Positions 625-20,655 of a DNA stretch of 41,764 bases are shown in pieces (the first letter of the stretch is position 1; each line of letters opens with the position of its first letter). The notes below the pieces were generated by a model. It ran no database searches, was not told the DNA's origin, and saw nothing but the letters and a program-made list of their open reading frames with translations. The position numbers and the translations under genes are program-made. The stretch is from positions 1 through 41,764 of the forward strand of contig CACHVT010000007.1 of assembly GCA_902583345.1 (NCBI GenBank), in the 5' to 3' direction. Source of the stretch: an uncultured Pelagibacteraceae bacterium (GTDB lineage Bacteria > Pseudomonadota > Alphaproteobacteria > Pelagibacterales > Pelagibacteraceae).

Positions 625-999
625 ATGAGCTACAAATGGGATAACAAAAAACCAACTGCACAAATGCTTGGAAGATGGCAACCATTCCATGACGGTCATT
701 ACGCTTTATTTAAAGAGATTATAAAAAAAACTGGGCAAGTTTGTATTCAAATTAGAGATGTGCAAGGAGTGGATGACAATCCATTTGATTTTGAAACAGT
801 AAAGAAAAAAATAGAAGAAAGATTAAATCCAGAATTTGAGGGAAGATTTAAAGTTATCCTAGTGCCTAATATTACCAATATCTGCTACGGAAGAGGAGTA
901 GGTTATAAAATTGAGGAAATAGTTATGCCTGAAGAAATACAAAAAATTTCAGCAACAAAAATTAGAGCTAAAATGCGAGAGGATGGAGATCTAAAGTGA
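625..999 (+). CDS. Cytidylyltransferase-like nucleotidyltransferase (NMNAT-type motifs)
   Basis: A 124-residue protein of the HIGH-type nucleotidyltransferase superfamily, which joins a nucleotide from ATP or CTP to a phosphorylated or carboxylated acceptor. GRWQPFHDGH at residues 16-25 holds the (H/T)xGH nucleotide-binding motif, and ISATKIR at 108-114 matches the second conserved motif of this fold. It is shorter than NadD or NadM (about 170-210 residues), so it may be a minimal catalytic domain. Its end overlaps the next gene's GTG start by four bases, so it is probably translationally coupled to the 2OG oxygenase. The real acceptor substrate cannot be read from sequence; an NMN adenylyltransferase role is only one option. 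Confidence 0.7.
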   Translation: MSYKWDNKKPTAQMLGRWQPFHDGHYALFKEIIKKTGQVCIQIRDVQGVDDNPFDFETVKKKIEERLNPEFEGRFKVILVPNITNICYGRGVGYKIEEIVMPEEIQKISATKIRAKMREDGDLK

Positions 1000-1847
1000 A
1001 CGAAAGACTTAAGTCGATTATAGATTTAAAGAAATATCCAATCTATGACTTAAATTCTCCAATAATTAAAAATTTAATTAAAAGATGCAAGAAAGAACTA
1101 GATCAGTTTAGTTGTTCGACTATTCCTAATTTTATTTTACCAAAATCATTAGAAATAATGAATTCAGAATTAGAAAAGCAATTAGATGAGGTTTATATGT
1201 CTAAGGAAAGTATAAATCCTTATTTATATGCTGAAGACAATCCAAAATTACCTAAGGATCATCCAAAAAGAACTTTTATGAGTAGATATAACGGATATTT
1301 AAATTCAGATTGTTTTCCAAAAAATTCAGAGATGAAATATCTTTATGAAACTGATGAACTTTTAAAATTTGTATCCGCATGTTTAGGAGTTTATCCAATT
1401 TATAGATGGGCAGATCCGTTGGCTTGTCACGCTTATAATGTAATGGAACCAGAAGGAATTCTTCCTTGGCATTTTGATAGTTGTGAATTTACATTAAGCT
1501 TAATGATACAAAAACCTGAAAAGGGCGGAGTATTTGAATATTGTCCAAATATAAGAAAACCAGGTGAAGAAAATTTTGAGGAAGTAAAAAAAGTTTTAAA
1601 TGGTGACAGAACTAGAGTTAGACAATTAAGTTTAGAACCAGGCGACTTACAAATTTTTAAAGGAAGATTTACAATGCATAGAGTAACAAAAATAGAGGGT
1701 AATAAATCAAGATACATGTGTATTCCTGCATATGTAATGGATCCTTGGAGGGTAAATACACCAGAACATTCCAAAGCTATATACGGAAAGGTATTGCCTA
1801 TTCATTTAGAGAGAAACATACCAAGATCTGACGGTTTAGCTGATTAA
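996..1847 (+). CDS. 2-oxoglutarate/Fe(II)-dependent oxygenase, hydroxylase-type
   Basis: A 283-residue protein with the double-stranded beta-helix facial triad: H159-F-D161 (in PWHFDS) and H228 (in FTMHRVT), followed by R239 in SRY, the likely 2-oxoglutarate-binding arginine. Overall it resembles the HalD/BesD-type group acting on free amino acids or other small molecules. It carries HxD, not the HxG of halogenases, so hydroxylation is expected. The start is GTG, overlapping the upstream stop (GTGA). The stop abuts the ATG of the carnitine dehydrogenase-like gene with no gap, which suggests one transcript and perhaps a shared substrate chemistry. The substrate is unknown. Confidence 0.75.
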   Translation: MNERLKSIIDLKKYPIYDLNSPIIKNLIKRCKKELDQFSCSTIPNFILPKSLEIMNSELEKQLDEVYMSKESINPYLYAEDNPKLPKDHPKRTFMSRYNGYLNSDCFPKNSEMKYLYETDELLKFVSACLGVYPIYRWADPLACHAYNVMEPEGILPWHFDSCEFTLSLMIQKPEKGGVFEYCPNIRKPGEENFEEVKKVLNGDRTRVRQLSLEPGDLQIFKGRFTMHRVTKIEGNKSRYMCIPAYVMDPWRVNTPEHSKAIYGKVLPIHLERNIPRSDGLAD

Positions 1848-2786
1848 ATGTTTAAAAAAATAGGTGTAGTTGGATGTGGTGTTATTGGTTCTGCTTGGAT
1901 CATTAGACTTCTTGCTCATAATAAAAAAGTAATCGCTTTCGATAATAATAAAAAAATAGAAAAAAAAATTATTAAGGAAATTAAAGTTACTTGGCCTTCT
2001 GTAAAAAAATTATTTAATAAAAAAAAACTTAACATAAAAAATTTTAAGTTCGTAACGTCTTTATCTGAGTGTGTAAAAGACGTAGATTTAATCCAAGAAT
2101 GTGCACCAGAAAACTATAATTTAAAAATTAAGTTAATGAAAAATATTGGAAAATATGCAAAACCTAATGCAATTATTTCTTCAAGCTCATCAGGCTTGCT
2201 TCCTTCAAGAATTTATTCTAAATGTAAAAACAAATACAGAACCCTAGTTGCTCATCCTTTTAATCCCGTTTATTTAATACCAGGAATTGAAATTGTACCT
2301 GGAAAAAAAACAAAAAAAAAATTTCTTAACAAAGCTTATAAATTTTATAAATCAATATCAATGAAACCAATTATGCTAAGAAAAGAGTTGCCAGGTTATC
2401 TTTCAGATAGACTGCAAGAAGCTTTATGGAGAGAAGCATTACATATTGTAAACGATGGATATGCAACTACAAAAGATTTAGATAGAGCTGTAGAAGACGG
2501 GCCAGGGCTTAGGTGGTCATTGATGGGTACTTTTTTAACGTTTCATTTAGCAGGCGGCAAAGCAGGCATGAAACATATGCTAGAACAATTTGGACCTGCG
2601 CTAAAATTACCTTGGACAAAACTCAAAGCTCCTAAACTTTCTAAAAAACTTTCACTAAGAGTTATTAATGGTACTAGACAACAAGCTAAAGGTAAATCGG
2701 TTGAAACATTGTCCAAAATAAGAGATGAATATTTAGTAAAGCTTCAAAAGCTAAGAAAAAAATATGAAGACAAAATTAGAAAATGA
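1848..2786 (+). CDS. L-carnitine dehydrogenase-like 3-hydroxyacyl-CoA dehydrogenase family enzyme
   Basis: A 312-residue NAD-dependent dehydrogenase. The Rossmann motif GVVGCGVIGSAW lies near residues 6-17. The catalytic segment HPFNPVYLIPGIEIV and the C-terminal blocks DRLQEALWREALHIVNDG, GPGLRWSLMGTFLTFHLAGG and EQFGPALKLPWTK are the pattern typical of L-carnitine 3-dehydrogenase rather than fatty-acid 3-hydroxyacyl-CoA dehydrogenases. That enzyme oxidises carnitine to 3-dehydrocarnitine, a route to glycine betaine. No BKACE cleavage enzyme or betainyl-CoA thioesterase lies beside it, so the substrate assignment is inferred from sequence resemblance. The gene starts directly after the oxygenase stop codon and is cotranscribed with it. 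Confidence 0.75.
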   Translation: MFKKIGVVGCGVIGSAWIIRLLAHNKKVIAFDNNKKIEKKIIKEIKVTWPSVKKLFNKKKLNIKNFKFVTSLSECVKDVDLIQECAPENYNLKIKLMKNIGKYAKPNAIISSSSSGLLPSRIYSKCKNKYRTLVAHPFNPVYLIPGIEIVPGKKTKKKFLNKAYKFYKSISMKPIMLRKELPGYLSDRLQEALWREALHIVNDGYATTKDLDRAVEDGPGLRWSLMGTFLTFHLAGGKAGMKHMLEQFGPALKLPWTKLKAPKLSKKLSLRVINGTRQQAKGKSVETLSKIRDEYLVKLQKLRKKYEDKIRK

Positions 2787-2801
2787 ATGTAGTAAAATAA
2801 C

Positions 2802-3575
2802 ATGAGGGTTTTGGTAAAAAATTTAGGTAGTGGAGTCAAAATTGTTACAATAAATGATCCAAAAACATATAATTCACTATCCTTTGAAACTCTAAAATCT
2901 CTTTTAAGCATTTTTAAACAATTAGATAAAGATAATGATACAAAAGTGATTATTTTAGAAGGAGCTGGAAAAGGATTCAGCGCGGGTCACAATTTAAAAG
3001 AAGTCAGATCGTTAAAAGTAAGATCAAAATATCTTAAACTATTTAATCTTTGTTCAAAGGTAATGATCCAAATAGTTGAAGGTAGAAAACCAGTTATTGC
3101 AAAAGTACATGGAGCAGCTTATGCCGCCGGATGTCAATTAGCAGCTAGTTGTGATTTAGCCTACAGTACAAAGGATGCAATGTTTGCAACACCCGGCGTT
3201 AATATAGGATTATTTTGCAGTACACCAATGGTTGCAGTTAGTAGAAAAATACATAGGAAGAGAATGATGAAAATGCTTTTAACTGGTGAACCTATAAAAG
3301 CTAACTATGCTAAAGAAATAGGTTTAATTAATAATTATTATTCAAAATCAAAATTAAATAATGAAGTTTTAAAGGTAGCAAAAACAATTGCTTCTAAGTC
3401 AAACCTAACTATAAAAATTGGAAAACAAGCTTTCTATAAACAATTAGAAATGCCATTAAGGAAAGCATATTTGTATACAAGCAAGATGATGACTTTAAAT
3501 ATGATGTCTAGAGATGCTCATGAAGGAATATCTGCCTTTTTAGAAAAAAGGAAACCCAAATGGAAAAATAAATAA
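2802..3575 (+). CDS. Enoyl-CoA hydratase/isomerase family protein, ECHDC3-like
   Basis: A 257-residue crotonase-fold protein. The oxyanion-hole regions are present: FSAGHNL at 59-65 and GAAYAAGCQLAASCD at 104-118. The segment FATPGVNIGLFCSTP at 128-142 is characteristic of the ECHDC3-like subgroup. Where classical enoyl-CoA hydratase has two catalytic glutamates (Glu144 and Glu164 in the rat enzyme), this protein has Q112 and G132, so ordinary hydratase chemistry is unlikely. It probably binds a CoA thioester and does something else, or acts as an accessory protein. It sits in the 625-4612 operon 15 bases after the dehydrogenase and abuts the next gene. Confidence 0.8.
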   Translation: MRVLVKNLGSGVKIVTINDPKTYNSLSFETLKSLLSIFKQLDKDNDTKVIILEGAGKGFSAGHNLKEVRSLKVRSKYLKLFNLCSKVMIQIVEGRKPVIAKVHGAAYAAGCQLAASCDLAYSTKDAMFATPGVNIGLFCSTPMVAVSRKIHRKRMMKMLLTGEPIKANYAKEIGLINNYYSKSKLNNEVLKVAKTIASKSNLTIKIGKQAFYKQLEMPLRKAYLYTSKMMTLNMMSRDAHEGISAFLEKRKPKWKNK

Positions 3576-4043
3576 ATGAGCAATAATGAAATAAAAAAAA
3601 TTTTAGAAAATTCAAAAACTATTGCAATGGTTGGAGTTAGTTCAGAGAAAAAAGGAGAAGATCCAAAAAATTTAAAAAGAAAACCCGCCAATGTTGTAAT
3701 GAAATATATGCAAGATTTTGGCTACAAAGTAATACCAGTAAATCCATTTGCTGAAGGAGAAATTATAAATGGAGAAGTTGTGATAAAGGATTTAGAAGAA
3801 ATTAAAGAGCCAATCGATATCGTAGATGTATTTCGTCCATCAAAGGAAGCACCAGATATTGCAAAAAAAGCCGCAAAAATCGGATCCAAAGTTTTTTGGT
3901 TACAATACGGTCTTCACAGTGATGAAGCAGAAAAAATTTCAGCCAATTCCAAAATGCAATATGTATCTGATAAATGTATAAAACAGGAATATCAAAAAAT
4001 TTTTGAAAAATCTAATCCAGTTTTTCCAGTTTTAAGAAATTAA
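3576..4043 (+). CDS. CoA-binding domain protein (YccU-like)
   Basis: A 155-residue single-domain Rossmann protein. TIAMVGVSSEKKG near residues 15-27 and KVIPVNPF near 51-58 match the CoA-binding domain seen alone in YccU-like proteins and fused in succinyl-CoA synthetase alpha and acyl-CoA synthetases. The C-terminal SDKCIKQEY corresponds to the family's conserved DRCIKIEH-like tail. No catalytic residues are known for the stand-alone form, and its cellular role is unsettled. Here it follows an enoyl-CoA hydratase-like gene without a gap and overlaps the next gene by one base (TAATG), so a role connected with CoA thioesters is plausible but unproven. Confidence 0.85.
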   Translation: MSNNEIKKILENSKTIAMVGVSSEKKGEDPKNLKRKPANVVMKYMQDFGYKVIPVNPFAEGEIINGEVVIKDLEEIKEPIDIVDVFRPSKEAPDIAKKAAKIGSKVFWLQYGLHSDEAEKISANSKMQYVSDKCIKQEYQKIFEKSNPVFPVLRN

Positions 4044-4612
4044 TGAAAAAAATTTTTATTGTATATGGTCACTACAATGATCAATCTTTTAATGCAGCTA
4101 TAAAAAATACATTTGTTAAAACTTCTGAGGAAAAGGGAAACAAAGTTGATTGCGTTGATCTTTATAAAGAAAAATTTAATCCTGTATTTTCTGGTGAAAA
4201 ACCTGACTCTATGGTTATAGATTATCAAAAAAGAATTGAAAAATCAGATGTTATAGTACTCATAGCGCCTATTTGGAATTTTAGAATGCCTGCAATTGTA
4301 GAAGGATGGATTGATAAAGTTCTTGCGCCACCTTGGGCATTTAGATTTAAAAAAATATTTGGTAATTATGGTTATCCAATAGGTAATTTAAAAGGTAAGA
4401 AAGCTGTTGTTTTTTGCACATATGGATCTCCACAATTTGCAATTAGAACTTTTTTTTTAAATATGCCAACTAAAAGATTAAGGAGAGGAGTCTTTAATAT
4501 TTGTGGAATAAGTGACGTTGTTTACAAAAGATTTTTTGCTGTTCCATTTGTCAGTCCAGAAAAAAGAAAAAAATTTTTAGAGGTTGTTAAAAAAACAGCT
4601 CTAAATATATGA
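4043..4612 (+). CDS. NAD(P)H:quinone oxidoreductase, flavodoxin-fold (KefF/MdaB/NQO1-like)
   Basis: A 189-residue cytosolic flavoprotein. The N-terminal strand and loop IFIVYGHYNDQSFNAA and the segment DVIVLIAPIWNFRMPAIVEGWIDKVL (near residues 69-94) are the FMN/FAD-binding parts of the flavodoxin-like quinone reductase family. The following PPWAFRF matches the region shaping the quinone pocket. Such enzymes make two-electron reductions of quinones at the expense of NAD(P)H. It overlaps its upstream neighbour by one base and its downstream neighbour by four (ATGA), so it belongs to the same long operon. Physiological substrate unknown. Confidence 0.8.
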   Translation: MKKIFIVYGHYNDQSFNAAIKNTFVKTSEEKGNKVDCVDLYKEKFNPVFSGEKPDSMVIDYQKRIEKSDVIVLIAPIWNFRMPAIVEGWIDKVLAPPWAFRFKKIFGNYGYPIGNLKGKKAVVFCTYGSPQFAIRTFFLNMPTKRLRRGVFNICGISDVVYKRFFAVPFVSPEKRKKFLEVVKKTALNI

Positions 4613-5253
4613 AAAAAATTTTATTAATTTTAATATTTATTTTTAATTTTAATAATTCTGTAAATCCAATAGATTTACCAAAATATTATCAATTTCCAGA
4701 TAATTATTTAAAAGGAAAATATTACGAAACAACAGAAAATTTTTTTATAGTAGCTACAAAAAAACTTAAAGATACCAGATTTAAAAAAACTGTAGTGGTA
4801 ATGCTTGATCATGATGAAAAGGGAGCGATAGGTATTGTTGTAAATAAACCATTAGGAACTGTTACCATTGGTTCTTTGATAAAAAATCTAGATGATCAAA
4901 GTATAAAAAAAGATTTATTAAATTATAAAGTGCCAATTTATTGGGGTGGTCCTTTGGATAATAATAAAATTTTAATTATTCATTCGAAAGATTATGAAAA
5001 TAATAATACTAAAAATTATGAAAAAATTTCTATTTCAAATGATTATAAAGCATTATTAGATATCGCAAAAAAAAAAGGTCCAAGTAAAAGTTTGGTAGTT
5101 ATAGGCATATCTGCCTGGAATGTAGGTCAGCTAGAAGGTGAAATTGATAAAGGTCATTGGAATTTGTCTGAAATAACACAGGACATTTTGTTTCAGGAAA
5201 AAAATGAAAAAAAACATATAATGGCTACCAAAAATAGTTTTGTTCGTTTATGA
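4609..5253 (+). CDS. YqgE/AlgH family protein (DUF179) with N-terminal signal sequence
   Basis: A 214-residue protein. From about residue 35 on it follows the YqgE/AlgH pattern: TENFFIVATKKLKDTRFKKT, then MLDHDEKGAIGIVVNKPLG, and later PIYWGGPLDNNKILIIHS. Members normally number about 185-190 residues and start directly at this domain. Here a hydrophobic N-terminus (MKKILLILIFIFNF) precedes it and looks like a Sec signal peptide or membrane anchor, so the domain would sit outside the inner membrane. The start overlaps the quinone reductase stop (ATGA), which supports this ATG. The family's molecular function is not settled. Confidence 0.85.
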   Translation: MKKILLILIFIFNFNNSVNPIDLPKYYQFPDNYLKGKYYETTENFFIVATKKLKDTRFKKTVVVMLDHDEKGAIGIVVNKPLGTVTIGSLIKNLDDQSIKKDLLNYKVPIYWGGPLDNNKILIIHSKDYENNNTKNYEKISISNDYKALLDIAKKKGPSKSLVVIGISAWNVGQLEGEIDKGHWNLSEITQDILFQEKNEKKHIMATKNSFVRL

Positions 5254-5717
5254 AAAAATATTTATTTATTTTTACTTTAATCTTGTCTTTCTTTTTTATT
5301 TCTAATCTTAAAGCTGAATTAATTAAACCAAATAGCAATATTGAACCTTATAAAGTAGTTAAAATTCAATTAACAAGCCTAATGAAAAATAATTATCCTG
5401 ATCAAGATAATGGTATCAAGCAAACTTGGGAATTTGCGCACCCAAATAATCAAAAATATACAGGACCATTAGAAAAATTTAAAAAAATGATTAAAGGTAA
5501 CTCTTATTCAATGTTATTGAATCATATGGAACATAAAATTACTGAAAGATTTATTTCAGACAATGTTGCAACTTTTGAAGTAATAGTTTTAGACTTTGAA
5601 AAAAAATATTTTAAATTTAAATGGCAAGTAGAAAAATACGATAAAGAAGGTCCATTGAAAGATTGTTGGCTGACGACTTCTGTTTCGCAACCTGTGCCTT
5701 ATGGTTCAGCAATATAA
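5250..5717 (+). CDS. DUF4864 domain protein, exported
   Basis: A 155-residue protein with a clear Sec signal peptide (Lys-Lys, then a hydrophobic core to about residue 20, with a plausible cut after LKA). The mature part has the DUF4864 pattern: a QLTSLMKN helix, a DNGIKQTWEFAHPNN block, TGPLEKFKKMI and a C-terminal WLTTSVSQP strand. Function is unknown; proteins of this domain look like small NTF2-like or cystatin-like folds. It overlaps yqgE by four bases and the next small gene by one, so three envelope proteins are made from one message. Confidence 0.75.
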   Translation: MKKYLFIFTLILSFFFISNLKAELIKPNSNIEPYKVVKIQLTSLMKNNYPDQDNGIKQTWEFAHPNNQKYTGPLEKFKKMIKGNSYSMLLNHMEHKITERFISDNVATFEVIVLDFEKKYFKFKWQVEKYDKEGPLKDCWLTTSVSQPVPYGSAI

Positions 5718-5963: not shown

Positions 5964-8396
5964 ATGAAATCTAAAGCAAAAGTAGTTGTTGTTGGTGGCG
6001 GTGTCGTCGGGGTAAGTATGCTTTATCATCTAGCAAAAAAAGGGTGGTCAGATGTTGTTTTAGTTGAAAGAAAAGAATTAACCTCAGGTTCAACTTGGCA
6101 CGCTGCTGGATTGCTCCCTTTATTTAATATGAGCTATTCAGTAGGTCAGCTTCATCAGTATGCAGTAAATTTTTATAAAACTTTGGAAGAAGAAACAGGA
6201 AAAAATGTTGGTTTCAGCGTTGTATCAAATATAAGATTAGCGAGTACAAAAGATAGAATGGATGAGTATCACCAGTATGCGGGTGTTGCTCAAACTATTG
6301 GAGTAAAATATAAATTTTTGACTCCGGATCAAGTAAAAGAAATTTGGCCATTATGTAATACAACAGATTTAATTGGCGCTATTCAACATCCAGAAGATGG
6401 TTATATACAGCCAGCTGACTTGACTCAAGCACTCGCAACAGGCGCAAGAAACAGAGGTGCAGAAATTTACAGAAATACAACAGTAGTTGGAATTAAACAA
6501 ACTAAAGATGGTTGGGTTGTAGAAACAGATAAAGGAACAATAGAATGCGAGCATGTTGTTTCTTGTTCAGGAAACTTTGCAAGACAAACAGGAAAAATGG
6601 TTGGACTTGAAATACCAGTTATACCAGTTGAACATCAATATATCGTAACTGAACCTCATCCCGAAATTCAAAAGAGAAAAAAAGATGGTCTTCCAGAAAT
6701 GGGCGTTCTAAGAGATAGTGATAGTCGATGGTATATGAGAGAAGAAGCTGGAGGTTTAATATTAGGTCCTTACGAAGATGGTGCACCCTGTTGTTATGTA
6801 GATGGACCATCAAAAGATTCAGAGTATGAATTGTTTCAAGAGGATTTAGAAAGACTTGCGCCTCACATCGAAGGGGCAATACATCGTGTTCCAGCATTTG
6901 GAGAAGTTGGAGTAAAAAAAGTTTACAATGGAGCAATTTGTTATACTCCAGATGGAAACCCAATTGTTGGACCAGCATGGGGGTTAAAAAACTTTTGGAT
7001 AAATGAAGGACATAGTTTTGGAATTACTGCAGCAGGTGGAGCCGGATGGCAGCTAGCAGAATGGATTATAGATGGAGAACCAACAGTAGATATGCTTGGA
7101 GTGGAGCCAAGAAGATATGGCGACTACTGCTCTAAATCATATTTAAAAGAAAAAAATGAAGAAGCATATAGAAATGTGTTTATTATTCATTACCCTGATG
7201 AAGAAAGGGAGGCTGGAAGACCACTAAGAACAGCTCCTTGTTATGATAGAATGAAAAAATTAGGAGCAGTTTTTGGACAAAAATTTGGGTGGGAAAGACC
7301 TAACTTTTTTGCAATAGACGGAATGGAACAAAAAGATGATTGGTCATTTAGAAGATCAAAATGGTTTAAAGCTGTTGAGAAAGAATGTAAAAATGTTAAA
7401 GAAAACGTAGGTCTACTTGATATGTCAGCATTTGCGAAATGCAGAATTAAAGGACCAAAAGCTGAGGAATTTTTAGATTATTTAGTTGCAAATAAACTTC
7501 CGAAAAAAATAGGTAGAATTAATCTATGTCACGCGCTTAACACTAAAGGTGGAGTTCATTCAGAATTCACTATAATGAGAGAGGCAAAAGATAGTTTTTA
7601 CCTTGTGTCTGCTGGTGCATTTCAAAGACTTGATCATGATTGGATACAAAAATGGATGCCAAAAGATGGGAGTGTGCAATTTGAAAATTTGACAAATAGT
7701 ATGGGAGTACTTGTTGTCTCTGGTCCAAAAGCAAGAGAGTTAATGCAAAGAGTTTCTAAAGATGATTTTTCAAATGAAAATTTTAAATGGTTAAGCTCAA
7801 AAAATGTTGATATTGGAAATGCTCCTGTTAACGCTATGAGAGTAAATTTTGTTGGAGAATTAGGATGGGAATTACATCACCATATCGAATATCAAAATCA
7901 TATATTTGATAAACTAATGGAGGCTGGCAAAGATTTAGGTATCAAACCTTTTGGTATAAGAGCTATGAATTCTTTAAGAGTAGAAAAATCTTATAAATTA
8001 GTTGGAACTGAACTATCTATTGAATATTCTCCATATGAATCTGGTTTAAATAGATTTGTCCATCCTAATAAAGGAAATTTCATAGGTTTAAATGCACTTA
8101 ATAAGTGGAGAGAAAAAGGTTTCAATAATAAGTTAGTTACAATGGAGGTACATAATGTAACTGATGCAGATGTACTAGGAAATAATCCTATTTATGAAAA
8201 TGGAAAAGTTGTTGGAAGAGCAACAGGGGGCGATTTTGGTTTTAGACTAAACAAATCAATTGCATTAGGAATGGTTAAACCCGAGATTGCGACAACTGGT
8301 CAAAAATTAAAAATTGATATTTTGGGTAAAATGCACGACGCTACAATTTTGGACGAAAGTCCTTACGATTCAGAAAATAAATTGTTAAGAGCATAA
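5964..8396 (+). CDS. Dimethylglycine/sarcosine dehydrogenase-like flavoprotein (DAO-GcvT fusion)
   Basis: An 810-residue enzyme expected to demethylate dimethylglycine or a similar N-methyl amine, passing electrons to ETF and the methyl group to tetrahydrofolate. The N-terminal DAO domain has [17 protein letters not shown] at residues 11-27. STWHAAG at 43-49 contains H46, equivalent to the histidine carrying covalent FAD in DMGDH and SARDH. A central FAO_M-like segment leads to a GcvT aminomethyltransferase domain from about residue 480 ([16 protein letters not shown]) to the C-terminus. It overlaps etfB by one base and is followed by etfA and ETF-QO, the exact electron acceptors this family needs. 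DMGDH and sarcosine dehydrogenase cannot be separated confidently by eye. Confidence 0.88.
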
Positions 8397-11746: not shown

Positions 11747-12121
11747 TTAAGATAAGTCTATTGCAAATTTTTTTAATTTTTCAATTGGAACAAGTTTGAG
11801 AGTATTTTCATGTGTTCTTTTTAAATATATTGAGCATCCTTTTCCAGCTTCTATTGCCTTTGCAACCCAACTGGCACATACACACCATTTATCGCCATCT
11901 TTTAATCCTGGAAAACTAAACTCAGGATGTGGAGTAACTAAATCATTACCAGCTTCTTTACACCAAGTTAAAAATTCATTATTAACTTTTACACAAACGG
12001 TATGAAGTCCATGATCGTTTTCGTCTGTATTGCAGCATCCGTCTCTAAACCAACCTGTTAATGGATCTAAAGAGCACTCCTCTAAATCTCCACCTAAAAC
12101 ATTTTTTTGCTTAATACTCAT
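11747..12121 (-). CDS. DUF2237 family protein
   Basis: A 124-residue protein matching DUF2237 along its whole length: NVLGGDLEECSLDPLTGW, RDGCCNT, HTVCVKVNNEFL, GNDLVTPHPEFSFPGLKDGD and KWCVCASWV. It has eight cysteines (C16, C29, C30, C43, C54, C80, C82, C96), several conserved in the family, suggesting metal or redox chemistry, but no function is established. No signal peptide is seen. Its start directly abuts the 2OG oxygenase stop, so it is the last gene of the minus-strand hisI-oxygenase-DUF2237 group. Confidence 0.85.
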   Translation of the reverse strand: MSIKQKNVLGGDLEECSLDPLTGWFRDGCCNTDENDHGLHTVCVKVNNEFLTWCKEAGNDLVTPHPEFSFPGLKDGDKWCVCASWVAKAIEAGKGCSIYLKRTHENTLKLVPIEKLKKFAIDLS

Positions 12122-12769
12122 TTATTTTTTAATTGCTATATCAGCGTTAAAGGAAAAAGATCTTCTTTCACCTGGTCCATAAAATGGATAAACTGTATGT
12201 AACATATAATTTGGAAATAAAATAAATTTTCCAACCTCAGGTTTTATTACCTCTAGAGCCCTACAATTAAATATATTTGCACCATGGGCTAATTGAATCT
12301 GTCCATTATAATTAGTCCCTACTTTATTTTGTGGCGGTCTACCAAAATCTTTTGGAAGCATAGTGTAGCAAACACCAGAAATATTTCCTGTATGAAAGTG
12401 TAAAGGGTTATATTCATTTTCAAACTGTCTAACTATCCATGCTTGTCTGTAGTTGATTAATAATTTTTTTTTAAACTCATCAATAGTTTTTATATTTAGA
12501 TCTGGGCGAGATTTAAACATGTAGGCTGCAATCATATTGCTAAGATAAGGACTTATTTTTGAATTAAAAAATTCTTTTTCCAATGAAATTTCTTGAGTAA
12601 CAGCACCTACCAATGTATTTCCAGCATCTAAATTTTTTGCTTTTTCTTTATCTTTAATAACTGAATTACTATAATCATTTAAATCTTTCACAAATTGAGA
12701 AAATACTTTGATTTCTCCTATAGTAGGTCCAAAAGGTTTTGTTACGTTCATTTCCTTTGTGAGATCCAT
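12122..12769 (-). CDS. 2OG-Fe(II) oxygenase superfamily protein
   Basis: A 215-residue protein resembling the putative 2OG-Fe(II) oxygenases common in marine bacteria and cyanophages. Candidate iron ligands are H124-F-H126 in PLHFHTGNISGVCY and H191 in FPNYMLHTVYP, with R202 or R203 in GERRSFSFNAD as the 2-oxoglutarate arginine. The first motif reads HxH where the textbook facial triad has HxD. The strand order (SGVCYTMLP, then a FILFPNYMLH strand, then an arginine-containing strand) matches a double-stranded beta helix. Substrate unknown. It lies two bases after hisI and abuts the DUF2237 gene. Confidence 0.7.
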   Translation of the reverse strand: MDLTKEMNVTKPFGPTIGEIKVFSQFVKDLNDYSNSVIKDKEKAKNLDAGNTLVGAVTQEISLEKEFFNSKISPYLSNMIAAYMFKSRPDLNIKTIDEFKKKLLINYRQAWIVRQFENEYNPLHFHTGNISGVCYTMLPKDFGRPPQNKVGTNYNGQIQLAHGANIFNCRALEVIKPEVGKFILFPNYMLHTVYPFYGPGERRSFSFNADIAIKK

Positions 12770-18944: not shown

Positions 18945-18964
18945 TAATTTTCTCTATACTAAAT

Positions 18965-19021
18965 AGTGCTCATAGCCTTCCCAATTAGATGATTTACCCC
19001 ATCTAATATGTTATGAGCACT
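18965..19021 (+). promoter_or_regulatory. Nested RNA hairpin just before the permease start codon
   Basis: AGTGCTCATA (18965-18974) pairs perfectly with TATGAGCACT (19012-19021). Inside, TTAGATG (18985-18991) pairs with CATCTAA (19000-19006) around an 8-base loop. The outer arm ends five bases before the ATG at 19027, so there is no room for a free Shine-Dalgarno sequence. No U-tract follows, which argues against a simple terminator. It may protect the upstream mRNA from 3' decay, or hold permease translation low relative to the binding protein, or be a ligand- or protein-bound leader. It does not match a riboswitch class I know. Confidence 0.65.
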
Positions 19022-19026
19022 TATAA

Positions 19027-20655
19027 ATGACTTCTAAAAATATTAATATCTGGTTTCTATCATCTCTTTTAATTTCATTCATAGTATTAATTCCAATTAT
19101 TACTGTCTTCACCAGTTTTTTTGAAAGCACATCTAATTATTATGAAATTTTAAAAAATACTTTTTTAGTAGAATATATTATAAATTCTTTAATTTTATTA
19201 ATATCAGTATTGCTATTTACATTCTTATTAGGCACAGGAACGGCATATCTAGTATCCTTTTATAAATTTCCAGGTAGTGACTTCTTTAAATGGGCATTAA
19301 TATTATCTTTTGCAGTCCCTCCCTATATTTATGCTTATTCACTGACAGCTTTTTTTGAAAATTATGGTACTGCTTTTACAATTTTAAATTTTATTTTTGG
19401 TGATGCAAATCACAATAAATACATTCCAAAATTTGATGGTATGTTAGGAGCAATATTATCAATTACTTTTTCCTTATATGTGTATGTATATATTCTAGCT
19501 AGAGCATCTTTTTTATATCAATCACAGAATTTAATTGATTTGGGTAAAAACCTTGGTTTTTCAAAATTTAAGTCTTTTTATAAAATAATATTGCCAGCTG
19601 CTCGACCAGCAATTGTTGCTGGTTTATCATTAGTTGCAATGGAAACCTTAGCTGAGTTTGGGGCGGTCGATTTTTTTTCTATCAATACTTTAACAACAGG
19701 TATTTATAATTCATGGATAGCTTTTGATGATTTAGCTTTTGCTAACCAAATATCCTTTTTTCTATTATTGTTTATATTTTCATTGTTTATATTAGAAAAA
19801 TTATCCAGAAGAAAAGCAAAATATCATTTAAATGCTAGAGGTGAATTTAAACAAAAAGAAAAACTCAAGCTATCTGGAAATAAGTCCTTTATAGCATTTA
19901 TTTTTTGTTTTTTTGTATTTTTTATGAGTTTCTTATTCCCTTTAAGTCAAATGTTATATTGGACAATAAAATTTCCAGAAAATTTGCTTGATATACAAAT
20001 AACTGGTCTTTTATTAAACACACTTTATTTAGTTTTGTTATCTAGCTTGGTTTTAATAATATTTTCTTTAATTTCTAATTATGGCAATAGAGTTTCTAAT
20101 AATAAAACTTTAAATATTTTATCTACCTTATCGATTTCAGGCTATGCAATTCCAGGAATAATTTTGGCTATCGCTTTTATTACATTTATTGCATGGTTTG
20201 ATGAAAATATAATTAAGTCTTTAGGTTTTTTATCAATTAAAAAATTATTCATAGGCTCAGTTCTTGGATTAGTTTTAGTTTATTTTGTAAGATTTTATTC
20301 TTTGGCCTTTAATGGTATAAAATCAGGATACGAAAAAATTAATATTTCGGTAGATGAAAGTGCATATATACTTGGTTTTTCTAAAAGAAAAACTTTTACA
20401 AATATTCATATTCCTTTTTTAAGAAATTCACTTTTATTTATTATAATTTTGATATCATTAGAAATAATACGAGAATTGCCAATCACTCTTATTTTAAGAC
20501 CTTTTAATTTTGAAACTTTTGCTACAACTGCATACATTTCAGCATCCGAAGATCTATTAGAGGCTGCAGCAGTTCCTTCATTATTTTTAATTTTAATTGC
20601 AAGCTTCTTTATTATAATAACATCAAAATATATTTTGAAAGTTACAAATGAATAA
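19027..20655 (+). CDS. Ferric-iron ABC transporter permease (FbpB/FutB type)
   Basis: A 542-residue inner-membrane protein with about 12 hydrophobic helices arranged as two tandem permease halves. Each half carries the EAA-like loop that docks on the ATPase: near residues 178-197 (SKFKSFYKIILPAARPAIVA) and again near 456-473 (SKRKTFTNIHIPFLRNSL). The duplicated layout and length are typical of iron permeases such as FbpB. It starts five bases after a nested hairpin and overlaps the ATPase gene by eight bases. It is expected to move Fe(III) delivered by the periplasmic protein encoded at 17719. Confidence 0.9.
   Translation: MTSKNINIWFLSSLLISFIVLIPIITVFTSFFESTSNYYEILKNTFLVEYIINSLILLISVLLFTFLLGTGTAYLVSFYKFPGSDFFKWALILSFAVPPYIYAYSLTAFFENYGTAFTILNFIFGDANHNKYIPKFDGMLGAILSITFSLYVYVYILARASFLYQSQNLIDLGKNLGFSKFKSFYKIILPAARPAIVAGLSLVAMETLAEFGAVDFFSINTLTTGIYNSWIAFDDLAFANQISFFLLLFIFSLFILEKLSRRKAKYHLNARGEFKQKEKLKLSGNKSFIAFIFCFFVFFMSFLFPLSQMLYWTIKFPENLLDIQITGLLLNTLYLVLLSSLVLIIFSLISNYGNRVSNNKTLNILSTLSISGYAIPGIILAIAFITFIAWFDENIIKSLGFLSIKKLFIGSVLGLVLVYFVRFYSLAFNGIKSGYEKINISVDESAYILGFSKRKTFTNIHIPFLRNSLLFIIILISLEIIRELPITLILRPFNFETFATTAYISASEDLLEAAAVPSLFLILIASFFIIITSKYILKVTNE

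Follow-up and report, generated by a model that had tools for sequence, protein, structure and literature searches.

The window analysed here covers the first 41,764 nucleotides of a contig from an uncultured Pelagibacteraceae bacterium of the SAR11 group (G000:C7:1-41764; contig CACHVT010000007.1, assembly GCA_902583345.1), and the genes in question form a compact run at 625-4612 which encodes a small nucleotidyltransferase, a 2-oxoglutarate (2OG) oxygenase, a dehydrogenase, a crotonase, a CoA_binding protein and a flavodoxin-like protein (Table 1). The genome is 87% complete, and the genes just upstream of the window are missing. The arrangement probably reflects the relocation of a predicted L-carnitine dehydrogenase (CDH) gene from a carnitine island into an older operon, behind an oxygenase that may serve a catabolic step of its own.

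Gene run and identity of the dehydrogenase

The six open reading frames (ORFs), their overlaps and the zero-gap junctions listed in a preliminary description of this DNA are all real. The stop codon of the nucleotidyltransferase gene overlaps the GTG start of the oxygenase gene in a GTGA junction, the oxygenase gene ends immediately 5' of the ATG at 1848, the spacings downstream of the dehydrogenase are 15, 0 and -1 bases, and the overlapping run extends past the six ORFs into AlgH-like and DUF4864 genes. Promoter and terminator scans gave scores below shuffle levels and nothing usable.

The dehydrogenase scores 355 bits on the NCBIfam model of L-carnitine dehydrogenase (NF005471, cut-off 414 bits) versus 293 bits for the next model. 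Because the cut-off is missed, strict equivalog membership is not claimed for the SAR11 CDH; without this label the protein very probably functions as a CDH. A Caballeronia relative is 48% identical, reaches 634 bits on NF005471 and lies in a locus of the order OpuAC-BKACE-CDH-thioesterase; the C-terminal blocks HPFNPVYL, EALWREALH and AGMxHxxxQFGP are common to both proteins. Rhizobial and roseobacter CDHs, named by annotation, also lie 3' of BKACE, and in a small tree with weak inner branches the SAR11 and annotated CDHs lie close to one another and away from lambda-crystallin and the remaining dehydrogenases. The closest solved structures are lambda-crystallins. The likeness to carnitine dehydrogenase proposed in the preliminary description is thus upheld, and the tree and gene context do not place the protein outside the CDH clade, the NCBIfam cut-off nonetheless being missed.

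Presence and absence were counted in 197 genomes of the order and in a genus subset of 117 genomes (39 with the oxygenase, 78 without). CDH was found in 87 of the 197 order genomes, in 86 of them together with BKACE and in one alone, BKACE alone being present in four, and the two genes are mostly adjacent. Co-occurrence, adjacency in the island and a thioesterase match associate CDH with BKACE and a betainyl-CoA thioesterase, and the SAR11 enzyme is highly likely to oxidise carnitine. In one island-type genome the CDH reading frame is split in two pieces (G171:C1:53267-54197, L130).

Table 1. Predicted features of the gene run and its continuation in the window
Feature	Coordinates	Strand	Remarks
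Small HIGH-type nucleotidyltransferase, 124 aa	625..999	+	weak CTP_transf-like/NMNAT-like match; in relatives an APS-kinase-like P-loop kinase precedes or is fused
2OG-Fe(II) oxygenase (OG), BesD/Hydrox fold	996..1847	+	HalD family; facial triad H159-D161-H228; GTGA start overlap
L-carnitine 3-dehydrogenase (CDH, predicted), relocated from the carnitine island	1848..2786	+	3HCDH family; best NCBIfam model L-carnitine dehydrogenase
ECHDC3-type crotonase without the two catalytic glutamates; older host operon	2802..3575	+	PRK08139/ECHDC3-like, above the PRK08139/ECHDC3 model cut-off
CoA_binding_2 protein; older host operon	3576..4043	+	Pfam
Flavodoxin_2/quinone-reductase-like protein; older host operon	4043..4612	+	Pfam
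AlgH-like (DUF179) protein	4609..5253	+	overlaps preceding gene
DUF4864 protein	5250..5717	+	overlaps preceding gene
Dimethylglycine/sarcosine dehydrogenase-like protein (DAO + GcvT)	5964..8396	+	ETF genes follow

Carnitine island, relocation and host operon

The usual site of CDH is directly 3' of BKACE, or a few genes away, in a carnitine island. The island complement varies by genome and includes a thioesterase, class II aldolase, choline dehydrogenase, TauD-type oxygenase, SDR, ABC betaine/choline transporter, BBOX-like dioxygenase, GDPD, ALDH and HIBDH; the thioesterase of the island matches the corresponding part of fused CDH. The other family in the sample (f2) has the order ALDH-BKACE-CDH-BBOX, to which genome G002 adds DddP-BHMT-DMGDH, an arrangement that ties the island to the demethylation of glycine betaine.

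In the genome of the window the island lies on another contig, C5, with BKACE, thioesterase, BBOX-like dioxygenase and a betaine-transporter ATPase, so the BKACE and thioesterase partners sought in the preliminary description are both present. The CDH slot on C5 is empty: BKACE and SDR are 3 bp apart there and no CDH remnant was found. The dehydrogenase of the window is the sole CDH detected in this genome. BKACE stands apart from CDH also in G028, G105 and G165, which makes four such genomes in the 197-genome sample.

The CDHs that adjoin the oxygenase form one clade beside the island CDHs (support 94/92, 93% of bootstrap trees, one change), which suggests one move followed by retention. Among the 80 best oxygenase loci, which are those most like the oxygenase of the window in GTDB species genomes and hence give no prevalence, the order oxygenase-then-CDH occurs in 33, in 26 of them with a gap of 0 or -1; such recurrence argues that it is not due to chance. 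All 80 belong to Pelagibacteraceae, except one labelled Pelagibacterales only. The gene order is conserved, within one clade to which at least 33 loci belong. Oxygenase and CDH co-occur in 27 of the 39 oxygenase genomes of the genus (p = 2e-5; this and the following Fisher tests treat genomes as independent, with shared ancestry uncorrected, so that the p-values overstate the case); 21 genomes of the same genus have CDH but no oxygenase, and 12 have the oxygenase but no CDH.

The remaining genes of the run belong to an older cluster. The nucleotidyltransferase is present in 151 of the 197 order genomes, and gene-order maps show the cluster kinase-nucleotidyltransferase-crotonase-CoA_binding without oxygenase or CDH, for example in G003 and G011, mostly continuing with flavodoxin, DUF4864 and, further on, DMGDH. 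Insertions have occurred repeatedly between nucleotidyltransferase and crotonase, where the oxygenase is found alone, with HIBDH, aldolase and FrhB, or with CDH. The earlier treatment of the six genes as one unit is not sustained, since nucleotidyltransferase, crotonase, CoA_binding and flavodoxin genes make up a cluster that occurs without the two others. The crotonase has CQL and TPG in place of the hydratase CEL and PE, both acids being missing; this loss, stated in the preliminary description, is real, but human ECHDC3 also lacks both acids, so that it is the normal state of the family and an unusual acid-free enzyme special to this operon was rejected. In the same way, the GTGA overlap of nucleotidyltransferase and oxygenase genes is genuine, but their specific partnership was rejected: the nucleotidyltransferase occurs in 103 of the 117 genus genomes versus 39 for the oxygenase, and the association is weak (p = 0.03). 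What truly neighbours the nucleotidyltransferase is a small protein of APS-kinase-like type. This short P-loop kinase is encoded 5' of it (for example L093:478-888; L118-L120), the two are fused in G164 (L119) and probably in G090 and G173, and the two domains of the fusion are arranged as in PHROG family 10255 ("kinase").

The oxygenase and its M24 partner

The oxygenase was found in 41 of the 197 order genomes. Its AlphaFold model (pLDDT 84) has HalD as the best Foldseek match (1e-13), and in fold comparison (VIA) gives a Z of 21.5 to 7jsd, the lysine hydroxylase homologue Hydrox, with 7jsd, HalA and HalB at about 21 and other 2OG oxygenases at no more than 16.7; the modelled structure is of the BesD/Hydrox fold. 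The family assignment rests on fold and Pfam HalD because the sequence profile has no significant match to a solved structure. All 11 aligned sequences carry HxD (in the oxygenase of the window the site is H159, D161 and H228) and none the HxG/A site of BesD-type halogenases, so by sequence the site is of hydroxylase type. The protein shares this fold and the Pfam HalD assignment with BesD, HalA, HalB, HalD and Hydrox (7jsd), and the HxD site with hydroxylases; it is only 13-19% identical to them, lacks a significant sequence-profile match and differs also in its links to betaine metabolism and to an M24 enzyme. A BBOX-like gene coincides with it in 37 of the 39 genus oxygenase genomes (p = 1e-11). 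A trimethyllysine hydroxylase role, considered from the BesD fold and the BBOX-like partner, is one candidate only, for which no direct support was found. Phage origin was rejected, as the viral collection held no relative, and a 789-aa form in L276 has no Pfam match past HalD and probably reflects a spurious open frame in high-GC DNA. Arrays of an oxygenase paralogue with HIBDH2, class II aldolase and FrhB were observed in L114, L125, L126 and L115 (in L115 with a divergent oxygenase), and in G028 (L091) CDH occupies the dehydrogenase place of an array with oxygenase paralogue, class II aldolase and FrhB.

The strictest co-occurring partner of the oxygenase in the genus is a DddP-like M24 enzyme, present in 35 of the 39 oxygenase genomes and in 0 of the 78 others (p = 1e-25), and in nine of the 35 genomes the two genes are unlinked, being widely separated or placed on two contigs. 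Sixty of the 80 best loci include 5.5 kb or more of upstream sequence, and the M24 gene is present in 59 of these. Outside SAR11 it lies directly 3' of oxygenase relatives of 35-52% identity in eight loci (one Pseudomonas, one Caballeronia plasmid and six other loci of proteobacteria), and a LysR gene is usually found close by or in divergent orientation. The unlinked genomes and this recurrence in other classes are stronger arguments than the p-values. An FrhB-like gene comes next in Pseudomonas, and in several SAR11 loci it adjoins the oxygenase or is one or two genes away. The genes around more distant oxygenase relatives encode MttB-family methyltransferases and, in a single instance, a Rieske oxygenase, both families being tied to quaternary amine demethylation.

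The M24 enzyme resembles the dimethylsulfoniopropionate (DMSP) lyase DddP in its M24 family and conserved metal-site segments: it aligns with the DddP-type structures 4rzy and 4b28 at 1e-80, and the SAR11 copies keep the HGxGLCDEW segment. It differs from DddP in that the oxygenase-linked proteins fall outside the DddP group (support 100/100), score well below the DddP cut-off and do not conserve the CDEW segment, which is replaced by HGET or TGEY in gamma- and betaproteobacterial members. On these comparisons the oxygenase-linked M24 protein is not placed in the group of DddP DMSP lyases with known structures. A two-step module may be hypothesised, in which hydroxylation of a betaine or N-methylated amino acid would be followed by cleavage catalysed by the M24 enzyme. 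It is conceivable, although somewhat less than an even chance is given to it, that HalD/BesD-fold hydroxylase and DddP-like M24 enzyme, in some cases with the FrhB-like protein, form an undescribed catabolic module of Alpha-, Beta- and Gammaproteobacteria that is common in SAR11, initiates the use of a betaine or an N-methylated cationic amino acid and in one SAR11 lineage is coupled to CDH in one gene run. The oxygenase-M24 module was not encountered in the papers searched, though no literature search was aimed at that pair.

Proposed explanation, alternatives and known systems

The favoured explanation, with a probability of about 0.75, combines a relocated CDH, the sole one detected, working with the island on contig C5 and a separate catalysis by the oxygenase and the M24 enzyme. 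It joins the observed gene content, empty CDH slot, single clade and co-occurrences to predicted enzyme activities. CDH would have left the island once and become fixed behind the 2OG oxygenase in the pre-existing nucleotidyltransferase-crotonase-CoA_binding-flavodoxin operon. Carnitine made by the BBOX-like dioxygenase of contig C5 would be oxidised by the CDH of the window with NAD to 3-dehydrocarnitine, which BKACE and acetyl-CoA would turn into betainyl-CoA and acetoacetate; the thioesterase would then free glycine betaine, which would enter the dimethylglycine operon starting at 5964. The dimethylglycine dehydrogenase-like protein of this operon is the probable sink for glycine betaine via dimethylglycine, and the link drawn between the two operons in the preliminary description is supported. 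The oxygenase would be a separate catalyst that most likely hydroxylates a cationic amino acid or a betaine, the product being processed by the DddP-like M24 metalloenzyme.

Several points weigh against this explanation. The dehydrogenase lies below the NF005471 cut-off, as does every tested SAR11 CDH (best 371 bits), and the rhizobial and roseobacter CDHs of the tree are named by annotation only, with no assayed CDH among the rows. The best sequence match of the oxygenase profile to a solved structure has an E of 0.04, and the co-occurrence tests carry the overstatement mentioned above. The M24 gene was not found in the genome of the window, one of the four exceptions in the genus, this genome being incomplete and the contig cut 5' of the nucleotidyltransferase gene. 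Finally, nine of the oxygenase genomes, and a few besides, have the BBOX-like gene but neither CDH nor BKACE, so carnitine may not be all that the BBOX-like enzyme serves. Five SAR11 loci without CDH or BKACE (L151-L154, L156) hold the BBOX-like gene with another class II aldolase subfamily, ALDH and HIBDH, mostly with a thioesterase too, and this set is a possible alternative fate of the BBOX product.

It is unlikely that all six genes form one dedicated pathway, where the oxygenase would make a 3-hydroxy acid from a quaternary amine, CDH would oxidise it and crotonase, CoA_binding protein and nucleotidyltransferase would finish the route. The junction of zero gap or one-base overlap kept in 26 loci, the co-occurrence of oxygenase and CDH, and the G028 array OG2-ALD2b-(CDH)-FrhB, where others have an HIBDH-family dehydrogenase, fit such a pathway, but either gene occurs without the other in the genus genomes counted above, the three finishing genes are found together without both, and the near-constant companion of CDH is BKACE and not the oxygenase. 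A dehydrogenase for another short-chain 3-hydroxy acid, of lambda-crystallin/L-gulonate or 3-hydroxyacyl type, with the island BKACE cleaving the respective keto acid, is similarly improbable. BKACE family members act on many beta-keto acids, and the score under the CDH cut-off and the lambda-crystallins as nearest solved structures agree with such a substrate; the CDH-type C-terminal blocks shared with Caballeronia, the betaine/choline-type transporter and BBOX-like enzyme of the island, and the f2 genome with BKACE-CDH-BBOX beside BHMT and DMGDH point instead to carnitine. Still less probable is the degradation of a DMSP-like sulfonium compound by the oxygenase with the M24 enzyme as DMSP lyase: the alignment with 4rzy and 4b28 and the HGxGLCDEW segment of the SAR11 copies would suit it, but the fully supported split from DddP, the replaced CDEW and the score under the DddP cut-off speak against it.

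The relocated CDH with its island has close counterparts in known systems. The caiX-cdhCAB-hocS operon of P. aeruginosa degrades carnitine to glycine betaine (PMC5806209), and the route passes via 3-dehydrocarnitine, BKACE and betainyl-CoA (PMC12482172). Common to this operon and the SAR11 genes are CDH and BKACE, a betaine-type substrate-binding protein and glycine betaine as the product, and the Caballeronia locus with its thioesterase gene 3' of CDH is related to it; in the lineage of the window, unlike P. aeruginosa, CDH is separated from BKACE and thioesterase and lies in an operon with nucleotidyltransferase and oxygenase genes at its head, and a BBOX-like enzyme belongs to the SAR11 island. 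A genomic island with CDH, BBOX, BKACE, CHDH, ALDH, class II aldolase and thioesterase was published in 2025 from Arctic SAR11 cultures (PMC12421898). Contig C5 carries the same kind of gene set, and islands of this type, judged by CDH and BKACE, are present in some 40% of the sampled genomes of the genus; the difference is the position of CDH away from BKACE in the four genomes named above, and the main-text gene list of PMC12421898 names neither a HalD-family oxygenase nor CDH relocation. The unrecognised route suggested earlier for the six genes thus gives way to the known CDH-BKACE-thioesterase pathway with SAR11 genes already published, and what is new is the relocation and layout of CDH and the oxygenase-M24 module.

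SAR11 bacteria are among the most abundant ocean cells, and betaines, carnitine and gamma-butyrobetaine among them, contribute to the dissolved nitrogen of the sea. As the gene set from carnitine to glycine betaine can be split over two loci in SAR11 genomes, searches for intact clusters will miss it there. A new step of betaine breakdown may be represented by the oxygenase-M24 pair, a candidate that lends itself to testing and has culturable carriers in Pseudomonas and Caballeronia.

Elsewhere in the window, the ORF at 129-593 encodes the C-terminal portion of a larger protein whose gene is truncated at the contig start; it matches residues 555-750 of a G028 protein of 750 aa with 89% identity, and the start of the family is signal-peptide-like. 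By eye, a second 2OG-oxygenase-like ORF (215 aa, HFH motif) stands beside a short DUF2237-like ORF at 11747-12769 on the - strand. A potC RNA (Rfam RF01751, 54 bits) lies at 18960-19026, just 5' of an ABC-permease-like ORF at 19027.

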